Shown here: in pieces, positions 19,968 through 26,768 of the stretch
How positions within the stretch are numbered: position 1 is the first letter of the stretch
Layout: each line of letters opens with the position of its first letter
DNA from: Thermosynechococcus sp. NK55a
GTDB taxonomy: Bacteria > Cyanobacteriota > Cyanobacteriia > Thermosynechococcales > Thermosynechococcaceae
Length of the DNA stretch: 64,000 nt
Assembly: GCF_000505665.1 (NCBI RefSeq)
Contig: NC_023033.1
Location: forward strand, 1,178,001-1,242,000
Direction: 5' to 3'
Translations under genes and position numbers: made by a program
The notes under the pieces: generated by a model
What the model was told of the DNA's origin: nothing
Seen by the model: only the letters and a program-made list of their open reading frames with translations
The model's database searches: none

Positions 19968-20638
19968 TGCTTGAAGATTTGGATCGTAGCACAGCTCTTT
20001 TGATCAGTATGGCACACTCCCGACACTGCGAAAGTTATAGCTATTCCAATAAAGAATGAGAAATTGGGCGGCACAATAATTGCAACTCACCTCATCTTTG
20101 CCACCTTACTTGACATAGGAGACAACCTGATCTCCTAAATTCAGTCTATAGCTCCTGTTCTTTAAGGATATTGAGGACGCTTCAAGGGTAATCTATCTCT
20201 CTTTGCAATATCTCACTCTCTTTCGAAATAGCCATAATGCACAGCCTTTTTCATAGGAATTGAAAAATGAAAAAAATATTAAATTTTATTTACTAGTCTA
20301 TAAACGCAAAAGTGATATCCACAGTAAAATTATTACCCTGCTAGATAGGAACTAGATAGATTATTATTTGTCAGAATTTAATAAATTATTAAAATAGGAG
20401 ATTGCAGATAAAAATGAATCTCAAATAAAATTAGAGGACTCATCTGTTGCCAATGAAATGGCTCTTTTATAAATGCTTGCTAGCTTAATAGCCATTTGTT
20501 TTAACTTATACTTTTCTTCGATCCTTTCAGTGCCGTTGAGTTGTCAGCGCACTGGCAGTGAAAATATGACTCCTACTGTCTAGTGCTTAGTTAAAGCATA
20601 TTGATTTTGGGGATTGTGTAAACGGAATCAAAGGAAGA
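19968..20638. other. 671-bp AT-rich intergenic region
   Basis: No open frame above about 25 codons with a ribosome site was found on either strand. From about 20240 to 20530 the sequence is strikingly A/T-rich compared with its neighbours, and no GCGATCGC octamer occurs in it. It contains the upstream region of the NIL-ferredoxin gene (left end) and the downstream region of the CapA-like gene. It could hold a regulatory RNA or be the relic of inserted DNA, but nothing specific is visible. Confidence 0.5.
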
Positions 20639-22162
20639 CTAGGATTGGGAATGGCTGTTGATAATCTCGCCGAAGCGTTCAATCCGCAAGGGAGTGTTAT
20701 GAAAGTCGGCTTGGATTAAACGGCGAATCAGTTGCACACTGGCAAAGTTTTGATCAATATGGGGAATCCCTTTGGCATCTAGGCGTACAGGAATGACTTT
20801 TCCTTGAATAAAGCGACCAGAACTGTCGAGTTCAATATCGAGAATCAGCGACTTGCCAAGGGGGCCGTGACTGCTTAGAGTCTGATAGCCGACAAAGTTC
20901 CCCAAGGAATAGGCAATGAGGCGGCCTTTGTATAATTCAAGGGCACGGGGAACATGGGGGCCGTGACCCAAAATTAAATCGGCACCATTGTCAATCATGG
21001 TGCGGGCAAACTGAACTACATTGCCCCGGTCTTCCCCATAGAAGTACTCAGTGCGATCGCGGGTATAAATTTGATCGCTACCTTCGGCGCCGCCGTGGAA
21101 ACTGACAACCACAATATCAGCGTTTTTCTTAGCCTCCCGCACAAGGGCGGCACTGGCCTTGAGGTCTTGGATGCGATTTTGGCCGTAGTAGGTGCCAAAG
21201 CCAATAAATGCGGTTTTCAGGCCATTGGCTTCGAGGTAGGTAATTTGATTGAGATCACCAATGGCGGTCATGCCAGCGGCGTTGATGTGGCGAATCGTAT
21301 CGCGAAATCCCTGTTCGTTGAAGTCGTAGCTGTGGTTGTTGGCGATGTTGAGGACGTCAAAACCAGCTTGGCGTAACACCTGTGCATAACTGGCCGGTGA
21401 GCGAAAGACAAAACTGCGACCCCCCTGGGTGTTTTTGTAGGGATGGGGATGATCGGTAAGGGTACTTTCATAATTGCCAAAGAGGAAATCTGCCCCCTGA
21501 AGATAGGGTTTTACTTGGGCAAAGAGCTTTTGGGGATCCGCAGGCAAGCGGTTACTGGGAAAATTGGTGCCAAGGACAATATCGCCAACCGCCTTAATCC
21601 GCAAGCGGCGATCGCTAGGGGCGAGTGGGGGGGACACAAGGGGAACATCGGGTTCAGGGGGTGTAATGGCTGGACTGGGTTCTGCACTGGGCGGGGCATC
21701 GACACTGAGTTGATTTTGCAACGTCAGGGCAATGGCACTGGTGCTGGCGATCGCCAGCACACTGAGGGCAAAGGCACTCACCGCCTGATGAGACCATGGC
21801 GTGGTAGGTATAGCTGCATTTGAGCTGGAACTTGCTTGAGGAGGCGGTGCCGCTGGTAAGGTCTCCCGTAAGTCAACGGTCTGTGTCCATTCTGGCCATT
21901 CTTCGCCAAGTAGCCGAGCATGGAGACGCACCCGCAGAACGCCTTGGGGCGCCAATTGCCTGAGACCTCGGCAAACAAACTGAACACAGACTTGTGGGGG
22001 GAGCGATCGCGCTGCTTCAAACATAATTTGTAAACAGTCGCCCCGCCGCCGCACGAGGGCGCGCACCCCCTTGGCTTGGAGTGCGCGGTTCATCAAATGG
22101 GCAATCGCCTCTGCTTCACCCTGACGTGCCTGCTGCCAAATCAAATCAAGGGAAGCGGTCAT
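20639..22162 (-). CDS. CapA-family (PgsA-like) metallophosphatase-fold protein
   Basis: 507 residues from ATG 22162. Residues 1-100 form an N-terminal cytoplasmic domain of unknown type (MTASLDLIWQQARQGEAEAI). A single transmembrane helix lies near 130-148 (AVSAFALSVLAIASTSAIAL), then a Pro-rich linker. The C-terminal CapA domain starts about 185 with IKAVGDIVLGTNFP, FGNYESTL, NIANNHSYDF, VVVSFHGG and LILGHGPHVPRALELY, the metal-binding motifs of this phosphoesterase-like fold. Homologs take part in poly-gamma-glutamate capsule synthesis, but no capB/capC are nearby. The first six codons lie inside the duplicated segment, so a 5' fragment recurs at 24835-24852. Confidence 0.85.
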   Translation of the reverse strand: MTASLDLIWQQARQGEAEAIAHLMNRALQAKGVRALVRRRGDCLQIMFEAARSLPPQVCVQFVCRGLRQLAPQGVLRVRLHARLLGEEWPEWTQTVDLRETLPAAPPPQASSSSNAAIPTTPWSHQAVSAFALSVLAIASTSAIALTLQNQLSVDAPPSAEPSPAITPPEPDVPLVSPPLAPSDRRLRIKAVGDIVLGTNFPSNRLPADPQKLFAQVKPYLQGADFLFGNYESTLTDHPHPYKNTQGGRSFVFRSPASYAQVLRQAGFDVLNIANNHSYDFNEQGFRDTIRHINAAGMTAIGDLNQITYLEANGLKTAFIGFGTYYGQNRIQDLKASAALVREAKKNADIVVVSFHGGAEGSDQIYTRDRTEYFYGEDRGNVVQFARTMIDNGADLILGHGPHVPRALELYKGRLIAYSLGNFVGYQTLSSHGPLGKSLILDIELDSSGRFIQGKVIPVRLDAKGIPHIDQNFASVQLIRRLIQADFHNTPLRIERFGEIINSHSQS

Positions 22163-22258
22163 GATCAAGGAACCTTCCAGCGATCGCGAGCAAACCTGTG
22201 GCTATTCTATGGAAAGTCACTCGTCTTGAAAGTTAGGCTCAGGCCAATTTGACAAACG

Positions 22259-22729
22259 TCACGCAGAGCCCTCTTGGGCATGCAAGGCTCGCAACAGATC
22301 ATGGCGGCTAATGATGCCCACTAACTCCCCCTGATCGTTCAAAACCGGTAGGCGACTAATGTGGTGATTGACCATGAGGCGAGCTGCTTCGGAAATGGGT
22401 GCATCCACGTTAATTGTGTGGGGGTTGGGGGTCATGACGTCCTGCACCTGTTGGCCGAGGGTTTTCTTAAGGTGTTGGTGAAAAGACTCTGGAGACTCAA
22501 AGTAGATGATGCTCCCTAGGAACGTAATGTATAACGGCGGCTCTAGGGGTGCTTCGCGCACGATCAAGTCCGCCTCACAGACCAGTCCCACCAATTTGCC
22601 CCTATCATCCACGACGGGGAGGCCGCGCACTTGTTTTTCTTCCATGAGACGAACTGCTTCTGAAATCGGGGCAGCGGCACGAATGGTAAAGGGGTTGGGG
22701 GTCATGTAATCACGGACAAGAGCGCTCAT
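22259..22729 (-). CDS. Two-CBS-domain protein, copy 1
   Basis: 156 residues from ATG 22729 (MSALVRDYMTPNPFTI); a longer in-frame reading runs back through aroH and is not credible. Two CBS motifs are present: one near residues 5-60 (VRLMEEKQVRGLPVVDDRGKLVG-type) and one near 95-150 (VQDVMTPNPHTINVD; ISRLPVLNDQGELVGIISRHD). Such stand-alone pairs bind adenine nucleotides and regulate partner enzymes. The gene begins 2 bp after the aroH stop, so the two are co-transcribed. Its sequence is identical to copy 2 at 24949-25419. Confidence 0.9.
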   Translation of the reverse strand: MSALVRDYMTPNPFTIRAAAPISEAVRLMEEKQVRGLPVVDDRGKLVGLVCEADLIVREAPLEPPLYITFLGSIIYFESPESFHQHLKKTLGQQVQDVMTPNPHTINVDAPISEAARLMVNHHISRLPVLNDQGELVGIISRHDLLRALHAQEGSA

Positions 22730-22731
22730 AG

Positions 22732-23163
22732 TTAATCTAGGGAATGAGAGGACAGTTCGAGGGGATGGTAGTCGCCACGCATGGCTAGATCGGGGCGGAG
22801 GCTTTGGGCATGGCGTAGGTAGGCGTGGTAAATCGGTTGATCTGGGTTGGGGGTGTTGAAGTAAATCAAGCAGCGGATACAGCGGGGTAGGTCTCCCTCT
22901 ACGTGCATTTGCTGGACATCGAGGAGGGGAATGTTCCGCCAATGGGGGCATTCACGGGCGATCGCCGCCGGAAAAATCTGATCGAGGTCACGGGTGACAG
23001 AAAAGGTGACACTAATTACTTCCGATAAATCAAGGGCATTGCGCCGCTCAATCTCGCTGAGGAGTTCCAAAACCGCCTCACGGATTGCGGGAATTGAATT
23101 TTCAGTGGCGGTAGTTGCTCCACGAATTGCTCGGACGCGCCAGCCCACAGTATGCTCCTCCAT
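22732..23163 (-). CDS. aroH: Chorismate mutase AroH type, copy 1 (native upstream region lost)
   Basis: 143 residues from ATG 23163: MEEHTVGWRVRAIRGATTATENS, with Arg residues of the AroH active site and CIRCLIYFNTP near the C terminus. Monofunctional AroH-type chorismate mutase converts chorismate to prephenate for Phe/Tyr synthesis. In this copy the DNA upstream of 23170 is foreign, so the gene has been cut off from sppA and its natural promoter. Expression would depend on whatever lies in the insert. The protein is identical to copy 2. Confidence 0.92.
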   Translation of the reverse strand: MEEHTVGWRVRAIRGATTATENSIPAIREAVLELLSEIERRNALDLSEVISVTFSVTRDLDQIFPAAIARECPHWRNIPLLDVQQMHVEGDLPRCIRCLIYFNTPNPDQPIYHAYLRHAQSLRPDLAMRGDYHPLELSSHSLD

Positions 23164-23172
23164 CAAGACAAA

Positions 23173-23371
23173 GAGCCTGAGTTTGCAAGCTATGTCGTGC
23201 TTATGTCGACCTTTGAGGTAAAATTTCAAGAGGCAAGAGAGCCTTTGGAAGAGAGGGAGCTTATGTGGGTTGAAGCTGATGAAGAGGTTTTTAAAAGATG
23301 AGGATTTAAGAAGATGTTATGCCCAAAAAGCGGTAGAAAGGCTAAGGAGTTTAAAATTGAAAAAATTGTAG
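23173..23371 (+). pseudogene. Tail of an unidentified gene, frameshifted
   Basis: From the left junction the frame reads EPEFASYVVLMSTFEVKF and on for 42 codons to TGA at 23299. If one base is removed from the TTTTTAAAA tract (23288-23296), the frame continues DEDLRRCYAQKAVERLRSL to TAG at 23371. This looks like the C-terminal end of a foreign gene whose start was lost at the junction. I cannot identify the family. Confidence 0.4.
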
Positions 23372-23427
23372 AGTAGTGGAAGGATGTTTTGAGTTTGAGT
23401 TTATAGAATGATTTTAGGAGGTTTGAA

Positions 23428-24171
23428 ATGGAGAAGCCAAGAGGTTATAACGAGAGAATTTTTAGTGGATATTTAAGAAGTTATTTTCATACACGAAGAT
23501 ATATATGGCTTAAAAGCAATTTGCTTAATTTATTAGGAAAAGATAAGATTAGTAGTCTAGCTATTCTGGAAATTGGCTGTGGTGATCTAAGAACACTTGA
23601 ATTTACAAAGATAAATCCAAAAATTTATGTAGGAATAGATAGCAACTGGGAAAATTTATTAGATCAAGCTAAGAGTAAATATAGAGGCTTAAATAACATT
23701 ATTTTAATTGAAGCAAAAAATCCATCAAAGATTACTCAAGAGTTTAATTTGTTTAATAATGATTTCTTTTTTGATGTCTGCATATCTTTAGAAACCTTTG
23801 AACACTTACCAAAACCTATTCTTGAAGAATATGTTGAATTTATTTCTAAATATCTCAATGGTCTAATATTTATTACAGTTCCTATAGAGTTTGGTCCTAT
23901 CTTTTTGATCAAACACTTCGTAAAACGATTTAAATATAAAGATGATTCAGAAACTTTCAAATATAAGTTATCCGAAATTTTCTTTGCGTCGATTGGTATA
24001 ACTAAAAAAGTAAAAAGGATAGAAGGAGGGCATAAAGGTTTTGATTATAGAGTTTTACTTGAATATTTATCATCTAAATTTGAATTAATAAAGGTGGAAG
24101 GTATACCATTTAATTATTTACCAGCTTTTATGAACTTTCAAGTTGGTATGATATTTAAAACAAAGCATTAA
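23428..24171 (+). CDS. SAM-dependent methyltransferase (class I), foreign
   Basis: 247 residues. AGGAGG at 23417-23422 precedes the ATG by 5 bases. The SAM-binding motif I is ILEIGCGDLRTLEF (about 47-60), with YVGIDSNWENL (acidic loop) and FFDVCISLETFEHLPKP (motif for the class I fold, about 108-124). It resembles methyltransferases from cell-surface polysaccharide or glycosyl-modification clusters. Codon use is very A/T-rich, unlike the host genes. The frame is intact although both neighbours in the insert are broken. The acceptor substrate cannot be told. It lies next to an asparagine-synthetase-like gene, a pairing common in surface-glycan loci. Confidence 0.8.
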   Translation: MEKPRGYNERIFSGYLRSYFHTRRYIWLKSNLLNLLGKDKISSLAILEIGCGDLRTLEFTKINPKIYVGIDSNWENLLDQAKSKYRGLNNIILIEAKNPSKITQEFNLFNNDFFFDVCISLETFEHLPKPILEEYVEFISKYLNGLIFITVPIEFGPIFLIKHFVKRFKYKDDSETFKYKLSEIFFASIGITKKVKRIEGGHKGFDYRVLLEYLSSKFELIKVEGIPFNYLPAFMNFQVGMIFKTKH

Positions 24172-24182
24172 GTAAGCTTAAA

Positions 24183-24834
24183 ATGTGCCGGATAGCGGGA
24201 TTTTGGGACTCTAATTATAGGGGTAATCTTGCCCATGGTGGACCCGACGATGGAGGTATTTTTTTAGAACCTTCTTATGGGCTTGCCCTTACTGACAGAA
24301 GGCTTTCCATCCTTGACCTTTCTTCCGCAGGACACCAGCCAATGGAATTTAAAAATCTTGTGATCACTTACAATGGAGAAGTTTATAGCTTTAGAGAAAT
24401 AAGGCAAGAGCTTGAAAAAGAAGGCTATAAATTCTCCAGCTCAGATACCGAAGTAATACTTAAAGCTTTTCATAGATGGGGGTTTTGAGGCGGTGCATCG
24501 CTTTAGGGGTATGTTTGCCTTTGCCCTTTGGGATAAAAAAGAGAAAAAACTTATACTCTGTAGAGACAGGATTGGGGTAAAACCTCTTTACTATTACACT
24601 AAAGATGAACTTTTTATGACTGCTTCTGAGCTCAAAGCCTTTCATAAACACCCTAAGTTTAAAAAAGAGCTCAGTCCTTTAGCCCTTTCTTTGTTTCTTT
24701 GTTTCTTCAATATGGCTATATCACTGCCCCATACAGCATATTTGAAGACACCTATAAGCTTGAGCTCGGGCACTTCTTGATAGTTGATGATAAGGGTAAG
24801 CTTTTAAAGTTTGCCTATTGGAAAGTGGAGGACT
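24183..24834 (+). pseudogene. asnB: Truncated, frameshifted asparagine synthetase (glutamine-hydrolysing)
   Basis: It starts MCRIAGFWD, keeping the N-terminal nucleophile Cys2 of the glutaminase domain, but position 3 is Arg rather than the usual Gly. About 30 residues seem deleted before GGPDDGG. The reading ITYNGEVYSFREI, AFHRWGF breaks at an extra G (about 24478-24482), then continues FRGMFAFALWDKKEK and RDRIGVKPLYYY. An 8-bp tandem duplication (TGTTTCTT, about 24696-24711) breaks it again before QYGYITAPYSIFEDTYKL. The gene ends abruptly at the repeat junction 24834, well before the synthetase domain. It is a remnant and non-functional. Confidence 0.88.
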
Positions 24835-24948
24835 ATCAAGGGAAGCGGTCATGATCAAGGAACCTTCCAGCGATCGCGAGCAAACCTGTGGCTATTCTAT
24901 GGAAAGTCACTCGTCTTGAAAGTTAGGCTCAGGCCAATTTGACAAACG

Positions 24949-25419
24949 TCACGCAGAGCCCTCTTGGGCATGCAAGGCTCGCAACAGATCATGGCGGCTA
25001 ATGATGCCCACTAACTCCCCCTGATCGTTCAAAACCGGTAGGCGACTAATGTGGTGATTGACCATGAGGCGAGCTGCTTCGGAAATGGGTGCATCCACGT
25101 TAATTGTGTGGGGGTTGGGGGTCATGACGTCCTGCACCTGTTGGCCGAGGGTTTTCTTAAGGTGTTGGTGAAAAGACTCTGGAGACTCAAAGTAGATGAT
25201 GCTCCCTAGGAACGTAATGTATAACGGCGGCTCTAGGGGTGCTTCGCGCACGATCAAGTCCGCCTCACAGACCAGTCCCACCAATTTGCCCCTATCATCC
25301 ACGACGGGGAGGCCGCGCACTTGTTTTTCTTCCATGAGACGAACTGCTTCTGAAATCGGGGCAGCGGCACGAATGGTAAAGGGGTTGGGGGTCATGTAAT
25401 CACGGACAAGAGCGCTCAT
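24949..25419 (-). CDS. Two-CBS-domain protein, copy 2
   Basis: 156 residues from ATG 25419, identical in sequence to copy 1 at 22259-22729, with the same two CBS motifs. It follows aroH copy 2 by 2 bp, giving the native order sppA-aroH-CBS. Downstream it runs into the insert instead of the CapA gene. Both copies are intact, so gene dosage is doubled. Confidence 0.9.
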   Translation of the reverse strand: MSALVRDYMTPNPFTIRAAAPISEAVRLMEEKQVRGLPVVDDRGKLVGLVCEADLIVREAPLEPPLYITFLGSIIYFESPESFHQHLKKTLGQQVQDVMTPNPHTINVDAPISEAARLMVNHHISRLPVLNDQGELVGIISRHDLLRALHAQEGSA

Positions 25420-25421
25420 AG

Positions 25422-25853
25422 TTAATCTAGGGAATGAGAGGACAGTTCGAGGGGATGGTAGTCGCCACGCATGGCTAGATCGGGGCGGAGGCTTTGGGCA
25501 TGGCGTAGGTAGGCATGGTAAATCGGTTGATCTGGGTTGGGGGTGTTGAAGTAAATCAAGCAGCGGATACAGCGGGGTAGGTCTCCCTCTACGTGCATTT
25601 GCTGGACATCGAGGAGGGGAATGTTCCGCCAATGGGGGCATTCACGGGCGATCGCCGCCGGAAAAATCTGATCGAGGTCACGGGTGACAGAAAAGGTGAC
25701 ACTAATTACTTCCGATAAATCAAGGGCATTGCGCCGCTCAATCTCGCTGAGGAGTTCCAAAACCGCCTCACGGATTGCGGGAATTGAATTTTCAGTGGCG
25801 GTAGTTGCTCCACGAATTGCTCGGACGCGCCAGCCCACGGTGTGCTCCTCCAT
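25422..25853 (-). CDS. aroH: Chorismate mutase AroH type, copy 2 (native context)
   Basis: 143 residues from ATG 25853, the same protein as copy 1; three synonymous differences separate the genes. It lies 30 bp downstream of sppA on the same strand and is followed by the CBS gene. It should supply prephenate for aromatic amino acids and be driven by the sppA-side promoter. A TTG codon directly precedes the ATG in frame, but the ATG fits the family start. Confidence 0.93.
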   Translation of the reverse strand: MEEHTVGWRVRAIRGATTATENSIPAIREAVLELLSEIERRNALDLSEVISVTFSVTRDLDQIFPAAIARECPHWRNIPLLDVQQMHVEGDLPRCIRCLIYFNTPNPDQPIYHAYLRHAQSLRPDLAMRGDYHPLELSSHSLD

Positions 25854-25883
25854 CAAGACATCCGCAAGGGTACTGTATCCAGC

Positions 25884-26708
25884 TTAGGGGCGATAGAGCC
25901 ACAGGGGAAGCCCATTGGTGGTCATTTCAAATTCCAGCCAATCCAGACCCGCTTGCCACGGGAAAGGGAGGCGCTCCTGCTGACGGGGAAACAGCCGAGC
26001 CAAGGGAGACTTCGGTTCTTCGATGGTTTGCACCTTGGTTTTGTCGGGGTCAAGGCCGGCCAGTTCTGCCAGCCAGCGGCGGGCATCCTCCTCAGTACCC
26101 AAGCGATCTACCAGTCCCAAGGCAAGGGCCTGCTCACCCGTAAAGACACGGCCATCGGCAAAACTGCGCACCGTTTCCACATCGAGGTTGCGGCCTTCGG
26201 CCACGGTTTGGACAAATTGGTGATAGCTGGTGTCAATCAGGTCTTGCAGAATACGGATTTCCTCCTCCGTGAGGTCGCGATCAAAAGCCAGAATGTCCTT
26301 GTAGGGACCGGACTTGATCACCTTGAAGGAGACCCCCACCTTATCGAGGAGCCGTTGCAAATTGTTGCCCCGCAGGATGACGCCAATACTACCCGTAATG
26401 GTGCCGGGGTTGGCCATGATGTGCTGTGCCCCCATGCCGATATAGACTCCGCCGGAGGCCGAGATATTGCCAAAACTGGCCACGATTTTCATTTTCGACT
26501 GCAAGCGCTTGAGGGCAGCATAGATTTCTTGGGAGTCGCCTACGGTACCGCCGGGACTGTCAATGCGCACGAGCAGCGCTGGGTAGCCCCGTTCTTCAAT
26601 GGTTTTCAGGGCTTTGAGGACACGCCGGCGAGTACCTCCAGCGATCGCCCCCGTAATCTCGAGGCGGGCAATTTGACGACGGTAACCACGGGATAAGGGC
26701 CAAGGCAT
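25884..26708 (-). CDS. sppA: Signal peptide peptidase SppA (short form)
   Basis: 274 residues from ATG 26708; a GTG at 26744 would add twelve, but the family starts like MPWPLSRGYRRQIARLEI. The serine nucleophile is in SASGGVYIGMGA (about residue 85) and the catalytic Lys in KSGPYKDI (about 136). LLVRIDSPGGTVGDSQEIY and GSIGVI are further conserved blocks. SppA digests cleaved signal peptides at the membrane; cyanobacterial SppA forms are also linked to light acclimation. It heads the sppA-aroH-CBS string. Confidence 0.93.
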   Translation of the reverse strand: MPWPLSRGYRRQIARLEITGAIAGGTRRRVLKALKTIEERGYPALLVRIDSPGGTVGDSQEIYAALKRLQSKMKIVASFGNISASGGVYIGMGAQHIMANPGTITGSIGVILRGNNLQRLLDKVGVSFKVIKSGPYKDILAFDRDLTEEEIRILQDLIDTSYHQFVQTVAEGRNLDVETVRSFADGRVFTGEQALALGLVDRLGTEEDARRWLAELAGLDPDKTKVQTIEEPKSPLARLFPRQQERLPFPWQAGLDWLEFEMTTNGLPLWLYRP

Positions 26709-26768
26709 AGGCAACAAGTAGCTCAGCAAATCGTGACAATTCACTCGAATTTCTAATCTAGCAAGGTT

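Follow-up and report, generated by a model that had tools for sequence, protein, structure and literature searches.

Foreign glycan-locus DNA between two copies of a host segment in Thermosynechococcus sp. NK55a: a possible natural case of insertion-duplication

Introduction

How can DNA from an unrelated bacterium come to lie in a cyanobacterial chromosome between two nearly identical copies of one host segment, with every host gene still in place? The question is raised by a locus of Thermosynechococcus sp. NK55a, a strain from Nakabusa hot spring, contained in a 64-kb stretch of its genome (hereafter the window; all plain coordinates are window positions), in which 1664 bp of AT-rich DNA (the insert) are enclosed by a direct repeat carrying a CBS-domain gene and aroH. 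An earlier note on this DNA had proposed one crossover with a circular molecule as the origin of this arrangement and chimeric assembly as the main alternative. Integrase-free entry of non-homologous DNA is, in our view of the field, known mostly from selected laboratory crosses.

The explanation that we favour, and to which we give about an even chance, is insertion-duplication, in which foreign and host DNA are joined illegitimately and the product enters the chromosome by one crossover. A fragment of the glycan-synthesis locus of a Thermodesulfobacteria-class bacterium would have become linked at both ends to a 1026-bp segment of host or near-host DNA, through joins at which the two sequences have at most about 2 bp in common. 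A single homologous crossover would then have brought the product, in the simplest case a small circle, into the chromosome, so that a copy of the host segment stood on either side of the foreign DNA and no host gene was lost. Such DNA may have been taken up by natural transformation, with the circle and the steps in the order supposed here.

The duplicated segment and its native state

Comparison of the two copies (Table 1) confirmed the borders, length and mismatch count of the repeat given in the earlier note: 1026 bp in direct orientation with three mismatches (99.7% identity). The mismatches, located at 22825/25515 (G/A), 23149/25839 (A/G) and 23152/25842 (A/G), are all synonymous, as had been claimed, and fall on third positions of aroH codons 114, 6 and 5 (numbered from the TTG at which the listed frame starts). 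A search of the whole genome found the segment at these two sites only. The foreign DNA had been said to start and stop exactly at the repeat borders; the borders hold, with the small correction that about 2 bp at each of them can be assigned to either side. Copy 2 preserves the order sppA-aroH-CBS and copy 1 the order aroH-CBS-CapA with new DNA upstream, and no native gene is lost at the locus. The aroH gene of copy 1 must find its promoter in foreign DNA, a point on which promoter consensus matches in 22100-26000 are uninformative (8, compared with 5.8, standard deviation (sd) 2.0, in shuffles).

The native state was established from 10 other genomes of the genus, one per species. The insert is absent from all ten, two of which show only matches of 35-48 bp in the asnB part, and the order CapA-CBS-aroH-sppA is present in one copy and without insert in 8 of the 8 congener loci compared, which is the order that the earlier note had reconstructed by removing one repeat and the insert. 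Relative to these eight loci, no host sequence is missing at the repeat borders. Next to the locus, the interval 19968-20638 between a ferredoxin-like gene (by translation reading) and CapA is AT-rich (35% GC) and varies among congeners, aligning throughout with one of the closest (L019).

Base composition was compared with a sample made up of the window and 40 stretches, each 20 kb long (864 kb in all, 34% of the genome, which is a single contig of 2,520,064 bp). Among 518 sampled windows of 1664 bp, one of them all masked, the mean G+C content (GC) was 0.535 with an sd of 0.038, which places the insert (33.8% GC) about 5 sd below the mean of the sample. The HIP1 site (GCGATCGC) occurs 94 times in the window and not once in the insert, in agreement with the earlier description of AT-rich, HIP1-free DNA between the copies; since 7.2% of the sampled 1664-bp windows are also free of HIP1, its absence alone is weak evidence. 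Low GC is not unique to the insert, as 500-bp windows below 38% GC also occur in six unmasked stretches of the other samples and in one more place in the window. In a self-comparison of the sampled 34%, this pair was the only near-identical, non-adjacent direct repeat of at least 200 bp. The other self-matches were adjacent or lower-identity repeats within two stretches (L112 and L120), a 70% pair between two others (L116 and L125) and one stretch overlapping the window. At positions 7713-7812 of L120 a 100-N gap lies among tandem repeats, and the genome paper reports that a single gap was left open, in a hemagglutinin-like gene rich in repeats (PMC3907722).

Gene content and origin of the insert

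The insert contains, in this order, the tail of a glycosyltransferase gene, an intact methyltransferase gene and the start of an asnB-family gene. Its best DNA relative is a 1,814,952-bp contig (G054) from the class of T. hveragerdense (Thermodesulfobacteria-class), whose glycan locus matches the asnB part at 89% and the glycosyltransferase tail at 84% identity, in the same order and on the same strand. The earlier note had advised a search for a thermophilic donor. Together with the absence from the ten congeners, these matches support a foreign origin of the insert, as the note had proposed, with the donor group indicated by sequence identity for the two ends only. When an 8.3-kb part of the G054 locus was compared with the NK55a genome, high identity was confined to the insert, the four other matches being short (66-78%). 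Of 41 genomes in the T. hveragerdense class, nine matched insert DNA, the best at 89%. Matches were also obtained in 24 of 136 genomes of the L028 class, titled Aquificales (best-scoring 76%, with the top two candidates per genome scored; many others matched over 20-60 bp only), and in three of the five genomes of the HRbin19 phylum, where the best-scoring one reached 72%. When genome contigs were scanned with asnB peptide patterns, a method that needs exact short peptides and missed the G054 locus, 30 loci were returned, the best at 71-72%. As a separate observation, two AT-rich stretches near 807-813 kb of the NK55a genome (L108, 7201-8000 and 10801-12600) enclose DNA that matches the donor-like glycan locus at 66-67% only.

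The glycosyltransferase tail was identified by homology to complete glycosyltransferases near asnB in L027, L028, L054 and G054; a Pfam search with the tail itself gave no match, and its G054 counterpart protein matches glycosyltransferase families. The methyltransferase matched no NCBIfam family, and its matches to Pfam methyltransferase domains remained below the curated cut-offs. Relatives of this gene were found in 3 of the 136 genomes of the L028 class (best 43% identity over nearly the full length, in one genome), and a 38% match lies on a Caballeronia plasmid. In G054 the slot between tail and asnB holds a UDP-sugar dehydrogenase-like gene (by translation reading) instead, and in L027 the order glycosyltransferase/methyltransferase/asnB recurs with a different methyltransferase. 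Because other genes occupy the slot in these two loci, it is variable, and such variability may explain why the methyltransferase has 27% GC and its flanks in the insert 38-40%. The donor-like glycan locus carries two similar glycosyltransferase genes (L081, 7597-8799 and 10202-11398), both about 84% identical to the insert tail, a pair that suggests a tendency of this locus to duplicate. As a precedent for decay within the donor, a glycosyltransferase truncated in T. hveragerdense was considered and dropped: its protein match covers 11 residues and is at chance level, despite a DNA match of 57 bp.

Compared with G054, the asnB part lacks 39 nt at one place and 3 nt at another, has a one-base frameshift in a G-run and contains an 8-bp tandem duplication. 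Its ungapped codons show 56 changes (37 synonymous and 19 nonsynonymous), and 2 of the 19 nonsynonymous changes affect residues invariant in 34/34 homologues, with others at strongly conserved residues; the count of 19 overstates the decay, because several of these changes match the commonest residue of the family. The insert is now one intact gene, the methyltransferase, between two dead gene ends. With six lesions placed randomly along the insert, the methyltransferase would escape all of them with a probability of 0.03, which is weak, post hoc evidence for its retention, as without a donor copy only truncating lesions are visible in it.

No recombinase domain was detected in the three main open reading frames (ORFs) of the insert or in the glycosyltransferase tail, the scan having covered these and not the smaller minus-strand ORFs; methyltransferase and amidotransferase domains were the only ones found, in keeping with the recombinase-free entry that had been suggested. 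The insert has no DNA match among 72,556 plasmid and 50,697 phage records, a peptide-pattern scan found no relatives of the methyltransferase in viral contigs, and an exact 29-base asnB pattern was also absent from them. One phage, entered in two records, gave a match of only 27% identity. Given the lack of a recombinase domain in the scanned ORFs and of any plasmid or phage DNA match, a mobile element, plasmid or phage was rejected as the source.

The contig G054 may be Caldimicrobium thiodismutans. C. thiodismutans was isolated from Nakabusa (PMC6543001), and Caldimicrobium-like and Thermosynechococcus-like sequences were reported along one small mat gradient there (PMC4103544). Caldimicrobium increased together with Chloroflexus and Roseiflexus in an experiment on Nakabusa mat, Thermosynechococcus not being named among the taxa that increased with it (PMC5790269). 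The donor bacterium probably lives in the same hot spring as the host.

Table 1. Features of the repeat-insert locus and adjacent genes (window positions).
Positions	Strand	Feature	Basis or remark
22145..23170		Repeat copy 1	First 6 CapA codons, CBS gene, aroH; stops 7 nt upstream of aroH ATG
23171..24834		Foreign insert	1664 bp, GC 0.338, no HIP1
24835..25860		Repeat copy 2	3/1026 mismatches to copy 1; native link to sppA retained
23169..23170		Left junction	CA, 2 bp common to host and donor-like sequence
24835..24836		Right junction	AT, 2 bp common to host and donor-like sequence
23171..23400	+	3' tail of GT4-type glycosyltransferase gene	Homology; 84% DNA identity to G054 (insert positions 1-220); two frameshifts, one nonsense codon compared with G054; right end approximate
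23428..24171	+	Intact S-adenosylmethionine-dependent methyltransferase ORF	247 amino acids; GC 0.27; AGGAGG upstream of ATG; Pfam matches below curated cut-offs
24183..24834	+	5' part of asnB-family gene (glutamine amidotransferase domain)	89% DNA identity to G054 (insert positions 1057-1662); broken, cut off at repeat border
20639..22162	-	CapA-like protein (PGA_cap), complete	Domain match; copy 2 holds 6 codons only
22259..22729	-	CBS-domain protein, copy 1	Domain match
22732..23163	-	aroH copy 1 (chorismate mutase type I)	Domain match; foreign DNA now upstream
24949..25419	-	CBS-domain protein, copy 2	Domain inferred from copy 1 scan
25422..25853	-	aroH copy 2	Domain inferred from copy 1 scan; native place after sppA
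25884..26744	-	sppA (peptidase S49)	Domain match

Routes into the chromosome

The junctions were compared with G054, a donor relative of 84-89% identity and not the true donor. Relative to this contig, donor-like sequence runs 2 bp into the host at each side. Because sharing of 2 bp is often due to chance (about 1 in 16 per junction) and G054 is not the true donor, the junction sequences indicate only that no long homology was used. Both main routes considered here, circle plus crossover and template switching, need two illegitimate joins.

Several observations are consistent with insertion-duplication. The NK55a genome encodes a ComEC-family homologue, and natural transformation has been reported for T. 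elongatus BP-1 (PMC6567925). In E. coli, a polymerase chain reaction (PCR) product diagnostic of the duplication was obtained from 56/60 clones, and 14 sequenced duplications measured 109-950 bp and were explained by a single crossover of a re-circularised molecule (PMC3240628).

Five points weigh against this explanation. No circle of this kind is known, the plasmid and phage records searched having given no match, a result with which a transient circle would be compatible. Transformation normally delivers single strands, which do not readily form circles. The closest donor is only 84-89% identical and lacks the methyltransferase, which was matched in 0 of 41 genomes of its class in a search without a positive control. 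Repeats of about 1 kb should recombine and eject the insert, and its persistence therefore implies that the event is young, that the insert is of benefit or that the culture is mixed. Finally, the decay of the remnants seems in conflict with the apparent youth of the repeats.

At 22825/25515, 10/10 congener rows carry the copy-2 base. At 23149/25839 the copy-1 base is found in eight of the ten and the copy-2 base in the two most distant, and at 23152/25842 six carry the copy-2 base, two the copy-1 base and two neither. Derived bases are assigned in this way to two sites in copy 1 and one in copy 2, clearly at the first site and less clearly at the other two. As each copy carries derived bases, both have probably changed since the duplication, and the mismatches do not support the earlier suggestion of a donor copy from a close relative. 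For the same reason, a divergent-strain donor deduced from the mismatches was set aside. A copy from a related strain would still be compatible with the data, since the identity of the copies equals the published strain-level average nucleotide identity of 99.7% (PMC8209445).

Three changes in about 301 third positions correspond to about 0.5% per lineage, and this clock predicts about 4.5 neutral changes in the 0.9 kb of remnants. The probability of at least six lesions would be 8e-6 to 3e-4 if 10-20% of changes are lesions, a proportion that is assumed, 0.03 at 50% and 0.29 at 100%. The mismatch between decay and age therefore points to one of three conditions: end genes already broken at the time of capture, repeats kept similar by gene conversion, or a defect in repair. 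As to repair, mutS1 (G000:C1:1625139-1627582; L137 and L139) is split because a run of six Ts is one T short; the gene is whole in 9/10 congeners, and no full match was obtained in the tenth, whose genome is fragmented. The frameshift may reflect a real mutator state or a 454 error. A 2016 survey lists NK55a as being without mutS1 (PMC5101192).

The repeat and the restored gene order fit one crossover with a circular molecule, as the earlier note had it, but the same scar would result from template switching or end capture, a credible though rather doubtful alternative. The end of a host strand that had broken or stalled near aroH would switch, with 2 bp shared, onto imported foreign single-stranded DNA, copy 1664 nt and return to the sister chromosome 1026 bp behind, producing tandem duplication and templated insertion in one event. 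Two shared bases are indeed found at both junctions, and such a route would dispense with the circle, involve one actor fewer and suit single-stranded uptake. A sister template would exist, as about 3 to 5.5 genome copies per cell are reported for Thermosynechococcus strain E542 (PMC8091003). Against this, the sharing of two bases is near chance, and no cyanobacterial precedent is known to us, no search aimed at one having been made.

An error of the 454 assembly or of gap closure, by which the insert and second copy were wrongly joined, has only a small share of the probability. The reads averaged 282 bp at about 26x, followed by Sanger closure (PMC3907722), and reads of that mean length do not span a 1026-bp repeat; the shift in the asnB G-run fits a 454 error, and that in the mutS1 T-run may do so too. 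However, 2 bp shared between host and donor-like sequence is too little for an overlap join, the copies differ at three sites, and the end genes, with the 39-nt deletion, the 8-bp tandem duplication and a nonsense codon, as well as two substitutions at positions invariant in 34/34 homologues, are unlike the genes of a living contaminant. Deletions, tandem duplications and nonsense codons are not typical 454 errors. Because these lesions are partly atypical of such error and do not resemble an intact contaminant, chimeric assembly, the main alternative of the earlier note, has become unlikely. C. thiodismutans, if it is the donor, grows anaerobically (PMC6543001) and would be an unlikely companion of an oxygen-producing culture.

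It is quite improbable that capture and decay of the foreign DNA took place at another site in a T. nakabusensis chromosome, before its transfer to this locus along with host DNA of a sister strain. Such a history would reconcile decayed remnants with near-identical repeats, and the strain-level identity given above equals that of the repeat, but the genome holds no second copy of the insert and derived bases occur in both copies. Least probable of all is homology-facilitated illegitimate recombination of linear DNA, with homology at one end and an illegitimate join at the other, which has been described in three naturally competent species and accounts for a foreign insert without a recombinase, but typically deletes about as much host DNA as it inserts and mostly shares 3-10 bp at one junction, 3/4 E. 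coli events having shared none (PMC3240628), and which is disfavoured because no host DNA is missing here, while a duplication is present and both insert ends are without long homology.

Significance and comparison with known systems

If the insertion-duplication favoured here is correct, the locus is a clear natural case of a known process. It has not been described in the titles and abstract beginnings of the literature on NK55a, T. nakabusensis, and Caldimicrobium with gene transfer, nor is it mentioned in the NK55a paper (PMC3907722). Its value is that of a natural case for which one can name the donor group and the recipient and point to both junctions and to the empty site. Because of this, and because reports place both groups in one spring, the proposed steps are testable in a transformable genus. 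The locus also illustrates that closed 454-era genomes can hold structures beyond the span of their reads. More speculatively, and with low confidence, we suggest that competent, multi-copy hot-spring cyanobacteria may gain unrelated genes of their mat neighbours through joint molecules built by chance, whether by template switching or by a single crossover, and that the resulting cost-free insertion-duplications may later be pared down to one useful gene, here the methyltransferase, between dead ends.

Among known systems, laboratory insertion-duplication (PMC3240628) shares with this locus foreign DNA flanked by a direct repeat of a host segment of about 0.1-1 kb and no loss of host DNA. At NK55a a direct repeat of the host segment lies on both sides, and the relatives are single-copy, without insert, with nothing lost. 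In contrast to the laboratory events, the NK55a case is natural, crosses phyla, has no selectable cargo and involves a circle that is inferred. Homology-facilitated illegitimate recombination (PMC3240628) is similar in its recombinase-free capture of foreign DNA with little or no sequence shared at the illegitimate join, whereas the NK55a locus has no host deletion, has a duplication and is without long homology at both ends; its junctions share 2 bp on each side, measured against a donor relative of 84-89% identity, compared with 3-10 bp in that process. Merodiploidy in Streptococcus pneumoniae (PMC3784515) likewise consists of tandem duplication triggered by DNA uptake, by way of sister chromatids; unlike the present case, its own duplications of about 100-900 kb need a pre-existing repeat and have a hybrid repeat, not foreign DNA, at the junction. 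No pre-existing chromosomal repeat of the pneumococcal type was found at the borders here, the segment being present at these two sites only and in single copy in relatives. Closest to home is the Roseiflexus-like segment of about 8 kb described in the same NK55a genome (PMC3907722), which, like the insert, is DNA resembling that of another hot-spring mat bacterium.

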